NCBI GenBank assembly: GCA_017457295.1
Contig: JAFTHS010000038.1
Location: 1 to 36,809 of the forward strand
Direction of reading: 5' to 3'
DNA: 36,809 bases
From: Paludibacteraceae bacterium
Lineage (GTDB): Bacteria > Bacteroidota > Bacteroidia > Bacteroidales > Paludibacteraceae
The notes beneath the pieces were generated by a model. That model was not told the DNA's origin. It did not search any database and saw nothing but the letters and a program-made list of their open reading frames with translations. Shown piece by piece: positions 6,120 to 34,569 of the stretch (its first letter is position 1; every line of letters starts with the position of its first letter). Both the position numbers and the translations under genes were made by a program.

Positions 6120-7772
6120 TTACTTGTACATAAAGCGTTTAATACTACGTTTAGGCGTTTTCTCAAACTCTTTCTCAACTAATTCAATAGTAGTAACTTG
6201 GCTATAATTAGGAAGCATCTTGTTGAGTTTCACCACATTCTCCTTCATAATTTGATCCACCGTATTGCCTTGCAACACTTCTGCCTTAGCCAATGATGGA
6301 TCAGAGTATACCAATGCTACCAACTTGTGCTCACGATCTACTACGACAGACTCAGTAACGAGAGGCAAACTATTGAGCTTATCCTCTATCTCCTCTGGAT
6401 AGATATTCTGACCATTAGGACTGAGCAACATATTTTTGCTACGTCCGCGCAAGAAGAGATTGCCCTCCTTGTCAATGATACCCAAATCGCCAGTGCGCAT
6501 CCAACCATCTTTGGTAAATGCTTCTTTCGATGCTTCCTCGTTTTTGTAATAACCCATCATCACGTTCACACCGCGCAATTGTAACTCACCCTCTTTCGTA
6601 GTTGGATCTTCGGAATCAATGCGCATTTCCATGCCAACAATGCCTTTACCACAGGAACGATATACATATTTATCCCAATCTTCGTATGTTACCAAAGGTG
6701 CACATTCGGTCATACCATAACCCACGCAATATGGGAAATGCATATCCTTCATACATTTCTCTACCTCTTCGTTGAGCGCAGCACCACCGATAATTAAGAA
6801 ACGCAACTGACCACCAAAAGCTTGCAACAAGGTATTACGTACCTTTTTGTGGATTAGTTTGTTGATAAGTGGAGTCTTCCATAATACTTTCATCACCGGT
6901 TTGTTGATGATTGGGAGTACTTTGCCTTTGATAATCTTCTCAATTACCAATGGAACAGTGAGAATCATGAATGGATGTACTTGCGCAAAAGCCTTCATCA
7001 AGATAGATGGAGTTGGTGCCTTAGTGAGGAAATATACCTCAGCACCATCACATACTTGATACAAGAACTCGAACATCAATCCAAACATGTGCGCAACTGG
7101 CAACATTGACAATACTTTATCACCTGAATTGTGAGGAATCTTCTTTACTGCGAAGTCAATATTTCCACTCAAGTTCTTGTGGGTAATCATCACACCTTTA
7201 GGATTTCCTGTCGATCCTGAAGTATAATTGAGCAAAGCTAATTCGTTGATATTATCAGTTGGATAATTCACATCCGCCTTGCTAAAACCATTAGGATATG
7301 CTTCTGCAAAAGCAGTATCTACCTTGGTATATGCTTGGGCAATTTCCTCATTAGCAGCAAACTGCAACGTATAATCGTCCATCAATACGATTGCAGACAA
7401 CGCAGGCATGTGACTAGCATCAATCTTTTTCAATACGTTAGGGCCCGTGTAAAGCAACTTTGCCTCTGAGTGATTAACTAAATTCTCAACACCTTCGCCA
7501 GTAAAATCAGGCAAAATACTGACAGCTACTGCCTTATACGACTCAATTGCCAAAAAAGTGACACCCCAGTTGGAACAATTGCGTCCGCAGAGCGCAATCT
7601 TATCACCTTCTTGAATACCCAAAAGGCGGAAAGTAGTATGCAGACGAGCAATTTGCACAGCTAATTCACCATAAGTGTATTGAGTTGCACCATCTAAATC
7701 TTTCATCGCCAAATCCGACCACTTGTTGATGACCGTGTTTTGGAGATATTCCATGTAATGTTTCAATTCCAT
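6120..7772 (-). CDS. AMP-dependent acyl-CoA synthetase/ligase (first paralogue)
   Basis: The enzyme is expected to activate a fatty acid with ATP to acyl-AMP and transfer it to CoA (or ACP). The 550 residues show the ANL-superfamily signatures: the P-loop LLNYTSGSTGNPKGVMITH, the GYGMTE adenylate motif, the DGWMRTGDLG hinge region, and a C-terminal lysine segment EFEKTPKRSIKRF that fits the catalytic Lys. The length is somewhat short for a FadD, as in many Bacteroidetes long-chain ligases. A paralogue with the same C-terminal signature is at 32902-34569. The gene appears monocistronic, with a TACCTTTG -7 box and a palindrome at 7817-7834 upstream. Chain-length specificity cannot be read. Confidence 0.88.
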   Translation of the reverse strand: MELKHYMEYLQNTVINKWSDLAMKDLDGATQYTYGELAVQIARLHTTFRLLGIQEGDKIALCGRNCSNWGVTFLAIESYKAVAVSILPDFTGEGVENLVNHSEAKLLYTGPNVLKKIDASHMPALSAIVLMDDYTLQFAANEEIAQAYTKVDTAFAEAYPNGFSKADVNYPTDNINELALLNYTSGSTGNPKGVMITHKNLSGNIDFAVKKIPHNSGDKVLSMLPVAHMFGLMFEFLYQVCDGAEVYFLTKAPTPSILMKAFAQVHPFMILTVPLVIEKIIKGKVLPIINKPVMKVLWKTPLINKLIHKKVRNTLLQAFGGQLRFLIIGGAALNEEVEKCMKDMHFPYCVGYGMTECAPLVTYEDWDKYVYRSCGKGIVGMEMRIDSEDPTTKEGELQLRGVNVMMGYYKNEEASKEAFTKDGWMRTGDLGIIDKEGNLFLRGRSKNMLLSPNGQNIYPEEIEDKLNSLPLVTESVVVDREHKLVALVYSDPSLAKAEVLQGNTVDQIMKENVVKLNKMLPNYSQVTTIELVEKEFEKTPKRSIKRFMYK

Positions 7773-18541: not shown

Positions 18542-21500
18542 TTACATCTCTTGTCCCATCACGCTGTAGGTCTTACCTTCGCGAAGGATTAGCAATTGAC
18601 CATCACGAACAATCTTCTGTACGTTAGACCCATTAGCTACAGTATTTTCCACCGAAGTAGGAGCGTTGCTCTTGCCTTGGATATTAAATTCTTTCCAATA
18701 TGGATCGTTTTTGTATGTATCTACCACTTCATCTGGAACATATACTGGAATTTGGCGGTCAACGTCAAAGAATGTTTTAGCATGAATAGCAGGAGGTGTC
18801 ATTGCTTTTACCGTCATCTTCTTCAACTTACCACAAAGAGCAAAACCATTATCTGCAACTTGTTGCATTGTACTTGGTAAAGTAAGTTCGTTGAGATAGG
18901 TGCAACCATAGAAAGCGGCATGCCCAATCTCTGTAACACCCTCAGGAATAACAATATTGGTCAACTCATGGTTGTTGTAGAATGCCCAATTGCCGATTCT
19001 GGATAATTCACCATCTTCTGCAAATGTAATAGAAGAAAGCATACGGCAGTTCTCGAATGCGCGGTCATCAATCTCAACAACACTAGCAGGAATTACAATT
19101 GATTGTAAGTTAACACATTCTGCTACAGCCATGTATGGGATTTTCTCCAATTGAGCAGGTAGAACTAATGAGTCTAGTTTGTAACAATTCTCGAATGCTT
19201 CTTCTGCCAACGTAGTACTAGTTGAAGCAGACAAATCAATGTGCTTAATGTTACGATGGTTGTGGTTGATGAAATCAAAAGTAAGAGGATGCAATTCATC
19301 TCCACTAATGATAGTTAATGACTCTAAAATATTTGTAAAGTATGGCATTTCTTCGCCAACAATTTCTGCGTATTCTTCATCAATTGCACCAAAGAAATCG
19401 GCAGGAGCAATAAGTGTTTTCAGTTTATAACATTGACCAATAATCCACATTGAATAATTGTAAGAAACCCAACCGTATTGGTCCACATATACAAAATCAA
19501 CAGAGCTAGGAATAGATAAGTATGTTAGTTCAGAGCAACCAGCGAATGCCCCTGTACCTAAATACGTAACACCGTCAGGAATGGAAACTGAAGTGATAGA
19601 AGAGCATCCCTCAAATGCATAATTTCCAACATGAGTTAATCCTACAGGAAGATTGATTGAAGAAAGTACAGAGCAATAAGCAAAAGCATAATCATTTATT
19701 GTTGTAACCGTAGAAGGAATGGCAATAGAAACGAGAGAGTTGCAATTGCGGAAAGCATAACTACCTATGCTGGTTAACCCTTCAGGAAGTACCACTTTCG
19801 TTATTTCAGGTGCATATGCAGCCCAAGGTCCTCCTTCGTAGATGTAGTCGTACATATCTCCTGTTCCTGTAATGGTAAGAGTGGTCGTTAGAGGATCATA
19901 TTCCCAAGTGAGACTATCACCACATTGATCAAATCTTGCAAATTTAGCAACTATAGTAGTGTCGGAATGTAGTATATAAAAGTCTAAGTAAAGACATTGG
20001 TCCATATTACCATTGCTCCATCCCATAAACATATATTCTTCATTATTAGTATATACACAGCAATTAATACTAGGATGACATTCCGAAAAATCTGGTACTA
20101 TCATTTCTTCACCATAGCCTCCAACTATATATTCATAATTTTCTAAGTATCCACCTTCTTCAGCAACAATGCGAACAGAATATGTAGCTACATCGAAGCG
20201 AGAAGTAATAACTGTATCAGACGTAACAACGATAGAACGCCATTGTTCCATCTCTCCATCACTCCATCCTAACCATGTACCACAACCCGATTCTTCAGAG
20301 AAATCAACTGTAGTTCCCTCATATGCTATAAATTCAATATTCTCCCCCCACATTTCTTCATATCCCCAGCGACCATTCCATGATGCGTGGAGATTATTTC
20401 CTTTAAGTGTTACGTTATAAGTAGGTTTCTCGACATATTGAGACTTAATTACAGTATCTTGAGTAATAATGATCGTACGAGGGTTTTCTGTAATGCCATC
20501 GCTCCATTGGCTGAATGAAGCAAACTCAGAAAGATAATCTTCAACTGTTATTTTTGTTCCATCATATACTGTAAATTCTATTGACTCACCAGTCATTTCT
20601 TCATATCCCCAACGACCGTCCCAATATGCGCGGAGATTATATCCTTCGAGTCTTACATTATAACTAGGTTTCTCAATATAATGAGCGATGATAGTAGTAT
20701 CTTGAGTAAGGGTCAGCGTACGAGGATTGTCTGTATTGCCATCGCTCCATTGGCTGAATGAAACAAACTCATTAGCCCCATATGCTTCAATGGTTACACT
20801 TCCTGTTTCACAAACTGATTCAATAACGTGAACATATGTTCCGGCCGCATCAGTAGCAAGACTTAATCTATGATTCACTCCTACCAAAGTAGGGGGGTAA
20901 CCTTCCACGCTGTTAAAAAAGTTTTCTAATGCGGAACAAGGAACACAAATGGATGCATCTGGGTGAAACGCACCATTATATCCTGAAGGAGGAATTGTTC
21001 CCTCTATAACTACACTTCCATAAAATTCAGAAAAAGCACCTTCTCCTATATACGATATGCTACTTGGAATAGTTAGTGCAACATGAGATTGTATTCCTGA
21101 AAAAGCATAAGGAGCAATGCCTGTTACTTGATAGGTAGTTTGTTCAAGATTTGATTCGTCTGTACAAACTATATTTTGCCATCCTAATACGCGTATATAA
21201 ATAACTTGATTATCAACACCGACATACACATCACCGCCCTCGTATTCTCTCCATACATCGCCTTTAACAAAGTCTAAATCATAAGCTTGATAATCCCAAG
21301 TCCAACTACCATCTGCATTTGCGGGCACAATTTTGAATCTTGGATTATCACTTGACTCATCTCCTTTCCAATCAAAAGTACCTGCATACCAGGTATCTGT
21401 ACCATCCACTTTGTTAATCCATTGACCATTTGCACCTGCAGGTCCTTCAGACCATGTAGTAATAGTACCTGGAATTGCAATACCCATACCCTCGCAAAGA

Positions 21501-21757
21501 GGTTGTGGAACCTGTACACAAATTGTCACTTTCCCCGCGCCAGGATTAGGCAAATCAGGTAATGCTGCGTTTGGAAAAGCAGGACCATTCACTTCTGATG
21601 GGATTTCTAAAACATTGTCATACCAATTGTACCCCACAACTTCTACGGTTGATTCACTAGTAACCGCGTAGCGAAGCCCATCGCCTGCTTCGAATTCTTG
21701 TGCCCAAAGGGCAGACGTGGCAAAGAGTGCCACGAAAAGAATGAAAAACTTTCTCAT
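18542..21757 (-). CDS. Secreted BspA-type leucine-rich repeat protein with T9SS-like C-terminal tail
   Basis: The 1071-residue precursor has a signal peptide (MRKFFILFVALFATSALWA). A first region (about 55-200) resembles a beta-sandwich carbohydrate-binding module (VQVPQPLCEGM..., many Trp/Tyr). Next come InlB-B-like modules (about 305-600) with repeated FSQWSDG.T.NPRT...T.DT...A.Y, including an 81-residue tandem duplication (nucleotide period 243 bp, near 20351 and 20594). BspA-type LRR_5 repeats follow (about 615-1030; LTSIGSYAFRNC, AIPSTVTTINDYAF and similar). The end, VQKIVRDGQLLILREGKTY through GQEM, looks like the short T9SS type A sorting domain of Bacteroidales. It is probably a surface adhesin or glycan-binding protein. 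It is preceded by the structured RNA at 21820-22156. Confidence 0.88.
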   Translation of the reverse strand: MRKFFILFVALFATSALWAQEFEAGDGLRYAVTSESTVEVVGYNWYDNVLEIPSEVNGPAFPNAALPDLPNPGAGKVTICVQVPQPLCEGMGIAIPGTITTWSEGPAGANGQWINKVDGTDTWYAGTFDWKGDESSDNPRFKIVPANADGSWTWDYQAYDLDFVKGDVWREYEGGDVYVGVDNQVIYIRVLGWQNIVCTDESNLEQTTYQVTGIAPYAFSGIQSHVALTIPSSISYIGEGAFSEFYGSVVIEGTIPPSGYNGAFHPDASICVPCSALENFFNSVEGYPPTLVGVNHRLSLATDAAGTYVHVIESVCETGSVTIEAYGANEFVSFSQWSDGNTDNPRTLTLTQDTTIIAHYIEKPSYNVRLEGYNLRAYWDGRWGYEEMTGESIEFTVYDGTKITVEDYLSEFASFSQWSDGITENPRTIIITQDTVIKSQYVEKPTYNVTLKGNNLHASWNGRWGYEEMWGENIEFIAYEGTTVDFSEESGCGTWLGWSDGEMEQWRSIVVTSDTVITSRFDVATYSVRIVAEEGGYLENYEYIVGGYGEEMIVPDFSECHPSINCCVYTNNEEYMFMGWSNGNMDQCLYLDFYILHSDTTIVAKFARFDQCGDSLTWEYDPLTTTLTITGTGDMYDYIYEGGPWAAYAPEITKVVLPEGLTSIGSYAFRNCNSLVSIAIPSTVTTINDYAFAYCSVLSSINLPVGLTHVGNYAFEGCSSITSVSIPDGVTYLGTGAFAGCSELTYLSIPSSVDFVYVDQYGWVSYNYSMWIIGQCYKLKTLIAPADFFGAIDEEYAEIVGEEMPYFTNILESLTIISGDELHPLTFDFINHNHRNIKHIDLSASTSTTLAEEAFENCYKLDSLVLPAQLEKIPYMAVAECVNLQSIVIPASVVEIDDRAFENCRMLSSITFAEDGELSRIGNWAFYNNHELTNIVIPEGVTEIGHAAFYGCTYLNELTLPSTMQQVADNGFALCGKLKKMTVKAMTPPAIHAKTFFDVDRQIPVYVPDEVVDTYKNDPYWKEFNIQGKSNAPTSVENTVANGSNVQKIVRDGQLLILREGKTYSVMGQEM

Positions 21758-21819: not shown

Positions 21820-21866
21820 AAAAAAGCGCAGACCTCCGTTGATTATTCACCAATAGAGGTCTTCGC
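21820..21866 (-). terminator. Intrinsic terminator at the end of the structured RNA
   Basis: On the minus strand GCGAAGACCTC (complement of 21856-21866) pairs with GAGGTCTGCGC (complement of 21826-21836), an 11-bp stem with one mismatch, then six T (21825-21820). It lies 62 bp upstream of the LRR start codon, so it either ends a separate RNA or works as an attenuator. Confidence 0.85.
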
Positions 21867-22156
21867 ATTACCCAAACAGTCAAATAAACAACAGGAAACC
21901 TACGCTGGTATGAAAACACACTACACCCAATTGAGATGTAGTATGGATATAATCATACCCATAGGCATCTATTGAATACTTTGATTTTGACTGTTTTTGT
22001 TTGAAAAGTTGCGAAGTTTTCTATTGGTCAAACGCAAAGCGTCAATAAACGCTATCAATATGTCCGAACCTACCCTGTTGAGCACTCAAGATACCCTAGA
22101 GATACACAATTGCGAAACACTTTCCGCAGGACATATATCCCTCCAGCGTAGGAATC
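21820..22156 (-). ncRNA. Unassigned structured RNA or long regulatory leader, about 335 nt
   Basis: The unit starts at a consensus promoter (22162-22192) and ends at an intrinsic terminator (21820-21866), and I find no plausible gene in it. Helices, in plus-strand coordinates: closing helix 21899-21908 with 22143-22152 (10 bp, CCTACGCTGG); 22058-22065 with 22129-22136 (8 bp), stacked on hairpin 22111-22128; hairpin 22038-22053; hairpin 21920-21942; helix 21909-21912 with 21954-21957; and an 11-bp helix 21874-21884 with 21986-21996 (AAACAGTCAAA) that crosses the closing helix, a pseudoknot. It lacks the RNase P conserved core and any tRNA-like end of tmRNA. It could be a free RNA or the attenuating leader of the LRR gene, since no other promoter is seen for that gene. 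Confidence 0.65.
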
Positions 22157-22161
22157 GGCAG

Positions 22162-22192
22162 CAAAGGTACAGATTTTTTTCGAATTGAGCAA
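22162..22192 (-). promoter_or_regulatory. Promoter of the structured RNA
   Basis: On the minus strand TTG (complement of 22190-22192), 20 bp, TACCTTTG (complement of 22162-22169). The start is expected near 22156, just before the closing helix of the RNA. Confidence 0.82.
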
Positions 22193-22267: not shown

Positions 22268-24364
22268 ATGCGAAAATTGATTTTTATGGCTACACTTGCC
22301 CTATTGGCTGCCTCTTGTCAAACGAAAGAGGATACCACTAAAGCACCTATTACCAAACCACAAATCACTATCGAAGGTGGTCGTTTTACTCCTGAAGCTC
22401 TTTGGGCTATGGGACGAATCAACTCCGTTTTGCCCAACGAATCAACCAACCTACTTGCCTATACCGTCAGCTACTACAGTGTAGAGGAAAACCGCTCTAC
22501 CTCGTGGATTCGCGTAGCAAAAGAAACGGAGAATGGAAAACTAGAAACACAAAGCGAATGGGTAGGATACGAACCAGCATGGTGGAATGACAAAATCGCA
22601 TATCTCAACGCAGGCAAACTATATATTAAAGGAGATAAGAAAGACATTGCTCTTCAAGGGTTTGACAAAGACATTGACGGATTTCTAATTTCGCCACAAG
22701 GAGACAGAATCATCCTTATTGCCCAGGTGAAAACCGTAGCATCTACTTTAGACAAGCACCCCGACTTGCCTTTGGCTTCGGGGCGTGTGGTAGATGACCT
22801 GATGTACAAGCATTGGGATGAATGGACAGAGACGGCCCCACATCCTTTTGTGGGAGATCTTACATTCAATGGTAAATCGTTGGTAGTAAACAATTTGGTG
22901 GATATTCTAGATTCCACTCCCTACGAATCTCCTATGAAACCTTTTGGCGGTGTCGAGCAATTGGCTTGGAGTCCAGATGGCAAACAAATAGCATACACCT
23001 GCCGCAAGAAAGTGGGATTAGACTATGCGGTTTCCACCAATTCCGATATTTATCTCTACGATATTGCTACAGCCACACATAGCAATATCACGAAAGCCAA
23101 CAAGGGATATGACACCAATCCTTCTTACTCTCCTAATGGTCAATACATAGCTTGGCAATCGATGGAGCGCGATGGATACGAGAGCGATGAGAATAGACTG
23201 ATGATTCACAATCTTGCTACAGGCGAGCAAATCTACTTGAGCAAAGGGCTCAACACCAATGTCGATTCCTACTATTGGAAAGACGACAACACGCTCGTTT
23301 TCAGTGCCGTATGGCATGGAACCTCTATGCTCTATGAGATAAACATTGAGGGGTTGAAAAGTATTGAAGATTCTAAAAGTTTTGAGGGTGATTTTGAGTG
23401 CCTCACGACGGGGCAATACGATTATGTGCCTGCTGCTAACGTTGGCAACACCTACTATTGTTTGCGCCATTCAATGCGTGAGGCCAACGAGATTTTCCGT
23501 TTCTGCAAAGGGGAAGCCCCTGTGCAAATCAGCCATGAGAACGACAATATCTACTCACAGATAGAAATGGGTACAGTAGTGCCACGTTGGCAAAAGACCA
23601 CCGACAACAAAGATATGCTCACGTGGGTGATTTATCCTCCTCATTTCGATCCAAACAAGAAATACCCTACTCTGCTCTATTGTGAAGGTGGCCCTCAATC
23701 TCCAGTAAGCCAGTTCTGGAGTTTCCGTTGGAATTTCATGATGATGGCAGCCAACGATTATATAGTCGTTGCGCCTAACCGTCGTGGTTTACCTGGTTTC
23801 GGAAACGAATGGAACGAGCAAATCAGCGGTGATTATGGTGGACAATGCATGAAGGACTATCTATCGGCTATCGATGAGTTTGTGGCTAACGAGCCATATG
23901 TGGATAAAGACCATTTGGGTTGCGTAGGAGCCTCGTTTGGAGGTTTTAGTGTGTATTGGTTGGCGGGTCATCACGAAAAACGCTTCAAGGCGTTTATCGC
24001 CCACGATGGTATCTTCAATATGGAGATGCAATACCTAGAAACAGAAGAAAAATGGTTTGCTAATTGGGATATGGGTGGCGCATATTGGGATAAAAAGAAC
24101 AAGATTGCGCAACGCACCTTTGCCAACTCGCCACACTTGTTTGTAGATAAGTGGGATACTCCTATTCTCTGTATCCACGGCGAGAAAGATTATCGTATCC
24201 TTGCCAATCAAGGAATGGCAGCTTTTGATGCTGCCAAGATGCGTGGTGTACCTGCACAACTATTGATTTTCCCAGACGAAAACCACTGGGTACTCAAGCC
24301 ACAAAATGGAATACTTTGGCAGCGCACTTTCTTCTCTTGGCTCGACAAGTGGCTCAAAGAATAA
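22268..24364 (+). CDS. S9 family serine peptidase, DPP5/acylaminoacyl-peptidase-like
   Basis: The 698-residue protein has a lipoprotein-type signal (LLAASC, Cys17). An N-terminal beta-propeller region (about 40-420; LAWSPDGKQIAYTCR, NPSYSPNGQYIAW) is followed by an alpha/beta-hydrolase domain. The catalytic triad is readable as Ser556 in GASFGGF, Asp641 in HGEKDYR and His673 in DENHWVLK. Family S9 enzymes cut short peptides, often dipeptides from the N-terminus. The length and the GGPQSPVSQFWSFRWNF segment best fit the DPP5-like group of Bacteroidales, which feed on peptides. A lipid anchor would place it in the periplasm or outer membrane. It has its own promoter; fabG follows at 59 bp. Confidence 0.87.
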   Translation: MRKLIFMATLALLAASCQTKEDTTKAPITKPQITIEGGRFTPEALWAMGRINSVLPNESTNLLAYTVSYYSVEENRSTSWIRVAKETENGKLETQSEWVGYEPAWWNDKIAYLNAGKLYIKGDKKDIALQGFDKDIDGFLISPQGDRIILIAQVKTVASTLDKHPDLPLASGRVVDDLMYKHWDEWTETAPHPFVGDLTFNGKSLVVNNLVDILDSTPYESPMKPFGGVEQLAWSPDGKQIAYTCRKKVGLDYAVSTNSDIYLYDIATATHSNITKANKGYDTNPSYSPNGQYIAWQSMERDGYESDENRLMIHNLATGEQIYLSKGLNTNVDSYYWKDDNTLVFSAVWHGTSMLYEINIEGLKSIEDSKSFEGDFECLTTGQYDYVPAANVGNTYYCLRHSMREANEIFRFCKGEAPVQISHENDNIYSQIEMGTVVPRWQKTTDNKDMLTWVIYPPHFDPNKKYPTLLYCEGGPQSPVSQFWSFRWNFMMMAANDYIVVAPNRRGLPGFGNEWNEQISGDYGGQCMKDYLSAIDEFVANEPYVDKDHLGCVGASFGGFSVYWLAGHHEKRFKAFIAHDGIFNMEMQYLETEEKWFANWDMGGAYWDKKNKIAQRTFANSPHLFVDKWDTPILCIHGEKDYRILANQGMAAFDAAKMRGVPAQLLIFPDENHWVLKPQNGILWQRTFFSWLDKWLKE

Positions 24365-32901: not shown

Positions 32902-34569
32902 TTATGCTTCATACAAGAAGCGCTTGATACTCTTCTTTGGAGTCTTCTCAAACTCGTGGTTGAATATCCTAATCTCGTTGATTTGTTCGTAGGTTGCTAA
33001 TTGTTGATTAACCAACTTACGATTCTCCTCCATCAGCACTTCCAATTGAGTTTGTGTGAGATGGTCTGCATCTACAGCCTCAAAATCTGGACAAACAAGG
33101 GCTACCAATTTAGTATCTTTCTGCAGCACAAGAGATTCCAACACATATGGCATATTATTGATTTTTGCTTCAATCTCCTCTGGATATATATTTTGTCCAG
33201 AAGCGCCAAGCAACATCGTCTTGCAGCGACCTTTAATATATATAAAACCATCGGCATCCACTGTACCCAAGTCGCCAGTGCGCAACCAACCATCTTCGGT
33301 AAAGCTTTCTTTGGTAGCTTGTTCATTCTTGTAGTAGCCCAACATCACATGCTCTCCACGCACCTGAATCTCTCCTACTCCATCGCCATCAGGACTAGCA
33401 ATACGCACTTCCATCAGTCCGTCCAACACTTGTCCGCACGATTGTGATTTGAATTTATCCCAGTGAGCAAAACTAATCAGCGGAGCCGTTTCGGTCATAC
33501 CGTAACCAACTGTTAATGGGAATTTGATACGCTTTAAGAACGCTTCTACTTCTGCGTTCAACGGTGCACCACCGATGATGATTTCAGAGAACTCACCACC
33601 AAACGCATTCACCAATGTCTCACGAATCTTATTTAACACCACCTTATCCAGCAATGGCATTTTTAGCACCCAACTAACGGCTGTTCGTGATATTTGTGGC
33701 TGAATCATCTTCTTATAAATCTTTTCCAGAATCAGCGGAACCGACAAAATCACAGTTGGTTTCACTTCTGCAAACGCCTTCATCAATATTTTTGGCGAAG
33801 GAGTTCTTCCTATCAAATGTGTATGTCCACCAGCGGCCAGACATGCCAAGAAATCGAATGCACAACCATAGGCATGTGCCAAGGGCAAAAATGCCACATG
33901 GCGGCAACCCGGATATACCAAACCTGTTTTAAAACCAAATAGTATGTTTCCCGCTAGCGCATTAGCAGGCGTGATGACACCTTTTGAGAAGCCCGTAGTG
34001 CCTGATGTGTAGTTGATTGATGCTACTTCGGCATTGCTACGCTCTATGTATTTCACATTGTCTTTGCTAAAGCCATTTGGATATGCCTCTGCAAACAAAT
34101 CCTCAATCGTCATCGTATCAACAGCTTGCGACTTGGACATGCGACTCAGTATCAGCTCCATATTGTTGAGCGACAAAACTGCCTGCAAATCAGGCACTTG
34201 TTCCGCATCAATATTCTCCCATATCAGATCTGTGATAAACAATAGCTTCGATTCAGAGTGATTGATGATATGTATAGCATCGTTGGCCTTGAAATCTTGT
34301 AATATAGGTACAATCACTGCGCCATAAGTGATAGTAGCCAAGTAAGTAATCACCCAATTGCTATTATTCTTGCCCATCACGGCTATTCTATCACCTTCTT
34401 TTATACCACAATGTTTGAATAGCAGATGCATACGAGCGATACGCTCAGCCATCTGCCCATACGTCAATACTATGGTTGTTCCGAAATCAGAAACCGCCTC
34501 CAAATCCCAATGTTGACGGAAGGAATTTTCGTATATCTTTATTAGATTTTCTTCTGGCTTATTCAGCAT
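32902..34569 (-). CDS. AMP-dependent acyl-CoA synthetase/ligase (second paralogue)
   Basis: The 555-residue ANL-superfamily enzyme has the P-loop INYTSGTTGFSKGVITP, GYGMTETAPL, DGWLRTGDLG, and the C-terminal catalytic-lysine segment EFEKTPKKSIKRFLYE. It clearly shares descent with the protein at 6120-7772 (identical stretches such as SGQNIYPEEIE against NGQNIYPEEIE). However, it differs in the substrate region and in regulation: it lies inside an operon with coaX and a thioesterase, 26 bp after the small membrane protein gene. It probably activates a different acyl chain or works on ACP; specificity cannot be read. Confidence 0.88.
   Translation of the reverse strand: MLNKPEENLIKIYENSFRQHWDLEAVSDFGTTIVLTYGQMAERIARMHLLFKHCGIKEGDRIAVMGKNNSNWVITYLATITYGAVIVPILQDFKANDAIHIINHSESKLLFITDLIWENIDAEQVPDLQAVLSLNNMELILSRMSKSQAVDTMTIEDLFAEAYPNGFSKDNVKYIERSNAEVASINYTSGTTGFSKGVITPANALAGNILFGFKTGLVYPGCRHVAFLPLAHAYGCAFDFLACLAAGGHTHLIGRTPSPKILMKAFAEVKPTVILSVPLILEKIYKKMIQPQISRTAVSWVLKMPLLDKVVLNKIRETLVNAFGGEFSEIIIGGAPLNAEVEAFLKRIKFPLTVGYGMTETAPLISFAHWDKFKSQSCGQVLDGLMEVRIASPDGDGVGEIQVRGEHVMLGYYKNEQATKESFTEDGWLRTGDLGTVDADGFIYIKGRCKTMLLGASGQNIYPEEIEAKINNMPYVLESLVLQKDTKLVALVCPDFEAVDADHLTQTQLEVLMEENRKLVNQQLATYEQINEIRIFNHEFEKTPKKSIKRFLYEA

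Follow-up and report, generated by a model that had tools for sequence, protein, structure and literature searches.

What lies in the gene-free segment upstream of a leucine-rich repeat (LRR) protein gene in this Paludibacteraceae contig, and does it act as a free RNA or as a leader of the gene behind it? A preliminary description of the 36,809-nt stretch analyzed here (the window) proposed a structured RNA with pseudoknots, a promoter and a terminator of its own, and a possible role as an attenuating leader. Covariation among copies and genomic context support this proposal; they also confirm that the observation is real and show that it reaches further than was supposed. We postulate, with a probability of roughly 0.6, that the RNA belongs to a family of cis-acting leaders that work as transcription attenuators, a reading built on sequence comparison.

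Fold of the RNA in the window

The features that the argument needs are listed below. A4 denotes an alignment of 100 copies, whose structure comprises 66 pairs in 12 helices.

22162-22192, minus strand: Bacteroidota-type promoter (TTG at 22187-22192 and TAccTTTG at 22162-22169)
21820-22158, minus strand: whole RNA, about 339 nt, from just 3' of the promoter to the U-run; fold z −7.35
22148-22157, minus strand: P0 5' strand, partner 22065-22073; has bases in common with the P1 5' strand
22143-22152, minus strand: P1 5' strand (closing helix of the preliminary description), CCTACGCTGG, pairs with 21899-21908
22043-22052, minus strand: P2 5' strand, GCGUUUAUUG, partner 21965-21974; 96.8% of cells paired on A4
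22035-22040, minus strand: P3 5' strand, partner 21978-21983; 94.6% of cells paired
22003-22021, minus strand: kissing hairpin 1, loop strand CUUCGCA at 22010-22016
21986-21995, minus strand: 5' strand of long-range helix d (11-bp helix of the preliminary description), partner 21875-21884
21907-21959, minus strand: hairpin e, GGUAUGA with UCAUACC, with a variable apical hairpin at 21917-21945
21899-21908, minus strand: P1 3' strand, CCAGCGTAGG, overlaps the P6 5' strand
21826-21905, minus strand: P6, conserved 3' helix, 21895-21905 with 21826-21836; outer part paired in 94.1% of cells (A4)
21883-21892 with 21838-21847, minus strand: P6b, extends P6, strands present in the window; two pairs at 68.0% and four at 97.2% of cells (A4)
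21858-21872, minus strand: kissing hairpin 2, loop strand UGCGAAG at 21861-21867
21820-21825, minus strand: U-run, intrinsic terminator tail behind P6, read from the sequence
18542-21757, minus strand: next gene, BspA-type LRR protein of 1,071 aa (Pfam LRR_5, E 2.4e-73)

Both boxes of the promoter claimed at 22162-22192 are present on the minus strand as stated, and the RNA strand carries no open reading frame (ORF) of at least 60 aa inside the RNA. The LRR gene starts 62 nt past the U-run, and a search for a TAnnTTTG box between the two found none. The predicted folding energy of the RNA is −121.8 kcal/mol, compared with a shuffle mean of −81.8, and 0 of 100 dinucleotide shuffles folded equally well. 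ARAGORN detected no tRNA or tmRNA in the window, so the tRNA-like domain and tag ORF that define tmRNA are not seen here. Elsewhere in the window, the divergent neighbor gene (22268-24364) encodes dipeptidyl-peptidase Dpp5 (NCBIfam E 4.6e-295), and two widely separated acyl-CoA-ligase-like genes (6120-7772 and 32902-34569) each have best 25 NCBIfam matches that all fall below the cut-off.

Covariation among aligned copies is decisive for both the fold and the family. In alignment A1, from which the covariance model (R1) was built, 90.6% of cells pair, compared with 84.5% after shuffling and 39 to 46% with partners slid. A4 was fitted to a nested model at a stricter E-value, which drops antisense and secondary rows (29 of 129 matches in an earlier search). 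On A4, 91.9% of cells pair (83.5% shuffled), double changes occur in 50 of the 66 pairs (31.7 shuffled), and there are 590 double-change cells (204.4 shuffled); each value lies beyond all 500 shuffles, to be read with the caution that related copies inflate shuffle-based covariation and that the nested helices on A4 lean on the model. The kissing-loop helix and helix d are absent from the model and do not depend on it. P2, P3, the hairpin stems, and P6 likewise exceed their own shuffles.

The kissing-loop helix, which the preliminary description did not list, is paired in 681 of 688 cells and has 51 double-change cells (6 shuffled, maximum 12). It was chosen by inspection of the first copies; in 59 copies outside model building, 408 of 409 cells pair. 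A further 36 copies, which include divergent home-genome copies and loci outside the order, pair in 220 of 228 cells, compared with a mean of 159 (maximum 175) when partners are swapped between copies. Among these 36, the loops vary yet remain complementary (UCCGGAA/UUCCGGA, ACUACCA/UGGUAGU, CCUGAGA/UCUCAGG). The scheme extends beyond the order: all 6 aligned cells pair at each of the loci L147, L148, and L300, and 4 of 7 do so at L299. Two weak home-genome rows (L136 and L138) have few aligned letters at this helix.

Helix d, described earlier as crossing the closing helix, is present in the window and covaries across copies (77% of cells paired compared with 60% shuffled; 185 double-change cells compared with 81), although in distant copies no more than 59% of cells pair, compared with 50%. 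The covariation check proposed for homologues thus came out in favor of the closing and the crossing helices, and of the kissing loop as well.

The terminator hairpin placed at 21820-21866 can form in the window, but it is not conserved in distant copies (51% of cells paired compared with 52% shuffled, 32 copies), and we rejected it as a general structure since it does no better there than its shuffles. Across all 100 copies it pairs in 76% of cells compared with 74%, with 31 double-change cells compared with 19 (maximum 29), and it may matter in close copies only. The helix conserved throughout before the U-run is the long-range P6 (21895-21905 with 21826-21836). Another local hairpin, GCGUUUAUUGACGC, first taken for a stem, was replaced by P2, which uses the same bases and covaries.

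Distribution and novelty of the family

By DNA search, the home genome contains a second copy (79% identity), and 25 of 61 genomes, every one from the same genus, gave matches. R1, built on A1 from 41 of 42 extracted copies (L039 was left out), matches the window RNA with 225.6 bits over 21820-22073. In the home genome it returned 17 rows, of which one is antisense to another row, leaving 16 places, and it matched 175 of 178 searched genomes of the genus. In the order sample, 93 of 393 genomes matched, representing 53 of 206 genera. Matches in the class sample (11 of 395) comprised the home genome, 8 others of the order, and 2 from beyond it; of the 5 in the phylum sample of 395, 3 lay outside the order yet inside the class. 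The RNA is therefore a member of a multicopy family in Bacteroidales. Fifteen genomes searched together had from 1 to 30 model matches each, a count that may include antisense or secondary rows.

The compact relatives outside the order (L147, L148, L299, and L300) are about 185 nt long and are weaker matches. An exact 18-mer occurs in at least 119 stretches of named genomes; among the 80 matches listed, most are from Paludibacteraceae or Bacteroidales genomes, with some Muribaculaceae and one Lentimicrobiaceae, and the four listed from other phyla have no model match at E 1e-6. The 18-mer was also found in three viral contigs, none with a model match at that threshold; a phage or plasmid RNA, for which neither collection gave a match, was rejected.

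The Rfam scan suggested earlier (RNase P, tmRNA, 6S, SRP, and Bacteroidales-1) gave no match at the RNA. Rfam 15 had no gathering-threshold match in the window, and another 20 loci likewise gave none at the RNA. When the 601 bases around the window RNA were scanned with relaxed settings, one chance match appeared (E 3.5), and relaxed scans of 20 order-level, 7 home-genome, and 6 class-level loci gave only chance scores at the RNA, such as MIR1319 over L147 (E 4.1). By these scans, the RNA is a new family, absent from Rfam 15.

Novelty with respect to Rfam 15 was thus tested, and novelty with respect to print was tested in part. A literature search, with most subscription papers outside its scope, returned no recognizable description of the RNA, and by term counts the Bacteroidales names sought are absent from the main text of two discovery papers. 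A 2017 publication by Weinberg and colleagues is reportedly a motif survey. The LOOT RNA was considered and set aside; the search returned no text about it.

Among known RNAs of related bacteria, FopS of Bacteroides thetaiotaomicron is also multicopy, with a canonical promoter and an intrinsic terminator (PMC11697453). In the passages available, it consists of a single-stranded 5' stretch and a terminator hairpin and pairs in trans with susC-type mRNAs; those passages describe no complex fold (PMC11697453). The RNA here, with its 66 pairs and 12 helices, is more than a single-stranded seed and a terminator hairpin and differs from FopS in this respect.

Genes and elements behind the RNA

We examined the context of 90 copies, comprising 74 of 75 named-contig matches (the weakest, L186, was left out) and the 16 home-genome copies. 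The next gene was co-oriented with the RNA in 80 of the 82 copies with a called downstream gene, while the upstream genes were mixed (50 co-oriented, 30 opposed, and 10 uncalled). In order- and class-level loci, the first called ORF was co-oriented in 44 of 46, a count that skipped 8 loci without coordinates; a cruder gene caller gave 24 of 28 for order loci. Location upstream of, and in the same direction as, a gene is what distinguishes a cis-acting leader, and comparison of copies establishes this position as near-obligate for the family. On the question left open earlier, leader or free RNA, this context favors the leader.

In 81 of the 90 copies, the 180 nt upstream of the core contain a TAnnTTTG box, compared with 9.9% of random windows. 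Between RNA and gene, such a box is present in only 4 of 62 co-oriented cases within 300 nt. The scarcity of promoter boxes there suggests that the RNA and the gene may share one transcript.

Some copies are followed by a known leader element. DUF805b (RF02914), a 35-nt cis element, follows the RNA at a distance of 30 to 51 nt in L003, L004, L016, and L137. Of 167 copies, 17 have a DUF805b-like core in the 150 nt behind them, where 0.0025 would be expected per window. None of these 17 has a promoter box between the RNA and the core. In these copies the RNA sits between the promoter and a leader element, which again suggests a single transcript.

DUF805b thus resembles the RNA described here in being a cis element in the leaders of the same bacteria, directly behind some copies. 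It differs in being a separate element: the core is absent within 150 nt of 150 of the 167 copies, and three of the four DUF805b in the home genome (C61, C73, C29, and C77) stand behind a promoter box of their own. Only the one on C61 directly follows an RNA copy with no promoter box between, a point against the cis-leader reading. The C77 element, which is below the cut-off, follows a weak copy at 151 nt, and a promoter box intervenes; two others stand behind a promoter box with no detectable copy, one of them about 95 nt from the box. One of the three home-genome elements behind a promoter box (L280) is preceded by a 5' leader similar to the beginning of the RNA but without its core.

The genes behind the RNA are diverse. 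Signal-peptide-like N termini, by a simple rule, are enriched among them (44 of 64 next genes compared with 124 of 377 other genes, p 1e-7). In a set of 57 of these 64 next-gene proteins, the best 25 of 36 Pfam families included LRR_5 (6 proteins), PEGA (3), and EcoRI methylase (2), together with single matches to fumarase, cytosine methylase, radical SAM, and others. Single candidate NCBIfam matches were to DISARM DrmD, a phospholipase-D-like antiphage protein, and radical-SAM maturases. A second set of 46 proteins, taken from distant loci (42 of the 44 co-oriented first genes and two later genes, at L108 and L109) and from the home genome (two genes, at L126 and L136), contained two each of LRR_5, MBOAT, type III methylase, BACON, zinc-ribbon, and NusG domains. 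The compact relative L147 precedes a type III restriction-modification methylase.

Certain links between the RNA and a gene type recur across families. HxsD-HxsB are found behind copies in both the home genome and G450, and MBOAT proteins behind copies in both the home genome and G465; in each pair the genomes belong to different families. CXXX-repeat peptides occur as a later gene behind copies at L109 (above the cut-off) and L108 (below it). Such recurrence favors cis action, and we consider that the RNA most likely acts in cis. No pathway common to the downstream genes was detected (LRR proteins, methylases, radical-SAM systems, fumarase, amylases, and others), so they provide no clue to a ligand, nor the metabolic theme that would point to a riboswitch. 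The RNA probably decides whether these downstream surface, defense, and peptide-making genes are read.

Competing helices and the proposed switch

The closing helix of the preliminary description, P1, is present in the window (22143-22152 with 21899-21908) and covaries across copies. Its 3' segment has the form CRGCGURG, of which GCGURG also builds the base of P6; given this overlap, P1 and P6 are mutually exclusive. A promoter box is present in 145 of 169 distinct copies. Within 70 nt, 77 of the 145 have the P1 5' strand, 53 are without it, and in 15 the P6 strand was unrecognized. Three of the 77 follow a relaxed pattern and the strict pattern gives 74 of 130; in random 70-nt windows the strict motif occurs in 5% and the relaxed one in 10%. 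Searched for anywhere before the core, the P1 5' strand was present in 88 of 118 usable copies. P1 is not universal, being missing from part of the copies, and the compact pseudoknotted core is kept with or without it.

Two positions vary in a compensated manner. When the second base on the P6 side is A, 26 copies have U and 0 have C as the P1 partner; a G there faces C in 31 copies and U in 20 (Fisher p 4e-8 for the A and G cases). At the seventh base we counted A-U in 60, A-C in 3, G-C in 11, and G-U in 3 (p 2e-8); both p-values ignore the relatedness of the copies, and the motif required pyrimidines at the tested places. With this requirement lifted, 11 copies had G facing a purine (A or G) at one place, and 10 had purines on both sides at the other; some of these purine-purine cases are probably wrong strands. 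All eight pairs form in 70 of the 77 copies, compared with a mean of 53.8 (maximum 61) with partners swapped, and in 67 of 74 of the strict set (51.4 swapped, maximum 58).

P0 also appears to be conserved, with a helix score of 17.6 compared with 14.0 (maximum 14.6) for swapped partners in 118 copies. A further candidate, P1b (AUAUGUCC with GGACAUAU), is present in the window and was rejected: its score of 12.46 in the same number of copies is above the shuffled-region control (11.0) but within the range for swapped partners (12.16, maximum 12.47). Nested folding does not predict P1, which speaks against a switch between P1 and P6: before the P6 3' strand is made, 59 of the 60 rows listed give P1 a probability of 0.0. 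Of 99 rows, a set that includes duplicates, only 29 have a P1 state more stable than the P6 state, and on average 2.6 kcal/mol favors P6.

Mutually exclusive helices, one of which is the terminator, are the hallmark of a transcription attenuator, and that arrangement is found here, with P1 in part of the copies. The placement of P1 and P6 on one strand suggests a transcription-attenuation switch. We propose that the RNA is transcribed from its own promoter ahead of an accessory gene and would end in an intrinsic terminator. The stem of this terminator would be P6, the long-range helix within a globular pseudoknotted fold made of P2, P3, the kissing-loop helix, and helix d. P6 and the U-run would terminate transcription. 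In copies with P1, its 5' strand could capture the GGCGUAG-type segment that P6 needs, thereby blocking the terminator and allowing the polymerase to read into the gene, and P0 could in turn hold the P1 5' strand. A signal, be it a ligand, a protein, or the speed of folding, would set the balance between P1 and P6. Copies without P1 would have to function without a strand swap.

Attenuating leaders and riboswitches consist of a promoter, a structured domain, a terminator, and then a gene in the same direction, with a 5' strand competing for a strand of the terminator. The RNA described here has the same order and a strand common to the closing helix and the terminator. It differs in being large, with several pseudoknots and no Rfam match, and in its many copies before unrelated genes, part of them without the competing strand.

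Other explanations would account for some of these features. The RNA could be released by the terminator and act in trans, regulating other transcripts or binding a protein, with the downstream gene incidental or reached by leak-through; multicopy small RNA families do exist in Bacteroides, as the accessible passages on FopS describe (PMC11697453), and an own promoter box, a U-run, and a compact core conserved regardless of P1 are what such an RNA would have. We consider this unlikely, for the next gene is co-oriented almost without exception (80/82 and 44/46), promoter boxes are mostly missing between RNA and gene, and the DUF805b-like leader elements behind 17 of 167 copies also follow without one. 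Slightly less likely still is processive antitermination, by which the fold would bind RNA polymerase, possibly with a NusG-like protein, and carry it past this and later terminators. The location of the RNA, at the transcript's 5' end and immediately ahead of a terminator, is consistent with this, as is the NusG domain in 2 of the 46 distant-locus proteins. A leader that simply stabilizes the 5' end of the mRNA, or fixes expression through partial termination with no regulated switch, would fit with the absence of P1 from part of the copies, its poor showing in nested folding, and the diversity of the downstream genes. We regard it as the least probable of the three: P1 and P6 covary and are mutually exclusive, and the kissing loop and P2 are conserved more heavily than a passive terminator needs.

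The put RNA and EAR are processive antitermination elements, and in LoaP/UpxY-type antitermination a leader before accessory operons lets terminators be read through. The RNA described here shares the accessory-operon leader position, and two distant copies precede NusG-domain genes. These are the first genes at L107 (genome G563) and L108 (G471); a third NusG-domain gene directly follows another copy on C12 of G563. They suggested a dedicated NusG paralogue as partner, an idea that seven genomes of the genus do not support. Each has a single NusG-domain gene alongside 8 to 30 model matches (a count that may include antisense or secondary rows), which argues that a dedicated paralogue is not needed there and sets the RNA apart from the LoaP/UpxY type. 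Among other model-positive genomes, G553, G563, and G471 have more than one NusG-domain gene.

Returning to the attenuator, we speculate, at somewhat less than even odds, that this is a new class of large regulatory RNA of Bacteroidia. Its core, built of a kissing loop and pseudoknots, would govern a long-range terminator through strand exchange, and a single signal would thereby gate a wide range of unrelated accessory genes. Genes for surface proteins, restriction and defense genes, and modified-peptide operons would then be under a common layer of control over how these gut bacteria face hosts, phages, and rivals. For an RNA this large and covarying, found in almost all the genomes searched in a gut genus and in many other Bacteroidales, absence from Rfam 15 would mean a sizeable gap in the catalog of bacterial regulatory RNAs, and its helices are open to testing one by one.

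Two observations concern the surroundings of individual copies. On home-genome contigs C9, C54, C82, and C126, several RNA copies lie within a few hundred bases of the contig ends, as if adjoining repeated sequence had broken the assembly. Some leaders have a small hairpin of their own. Variants with a GGAG loop occur in L131, L132, L134, and L135; the GGAG-loop hairpin was rejected as a common leader feature, being weakly enriched (7 of 167 compared with 7 of 600 random windows). In L126, L129, and L130, the leaders have in common a hairpin of the GCAUAG UUGGGAGUUC CUAUGC type, which stands before the start codons of unrelated genes.
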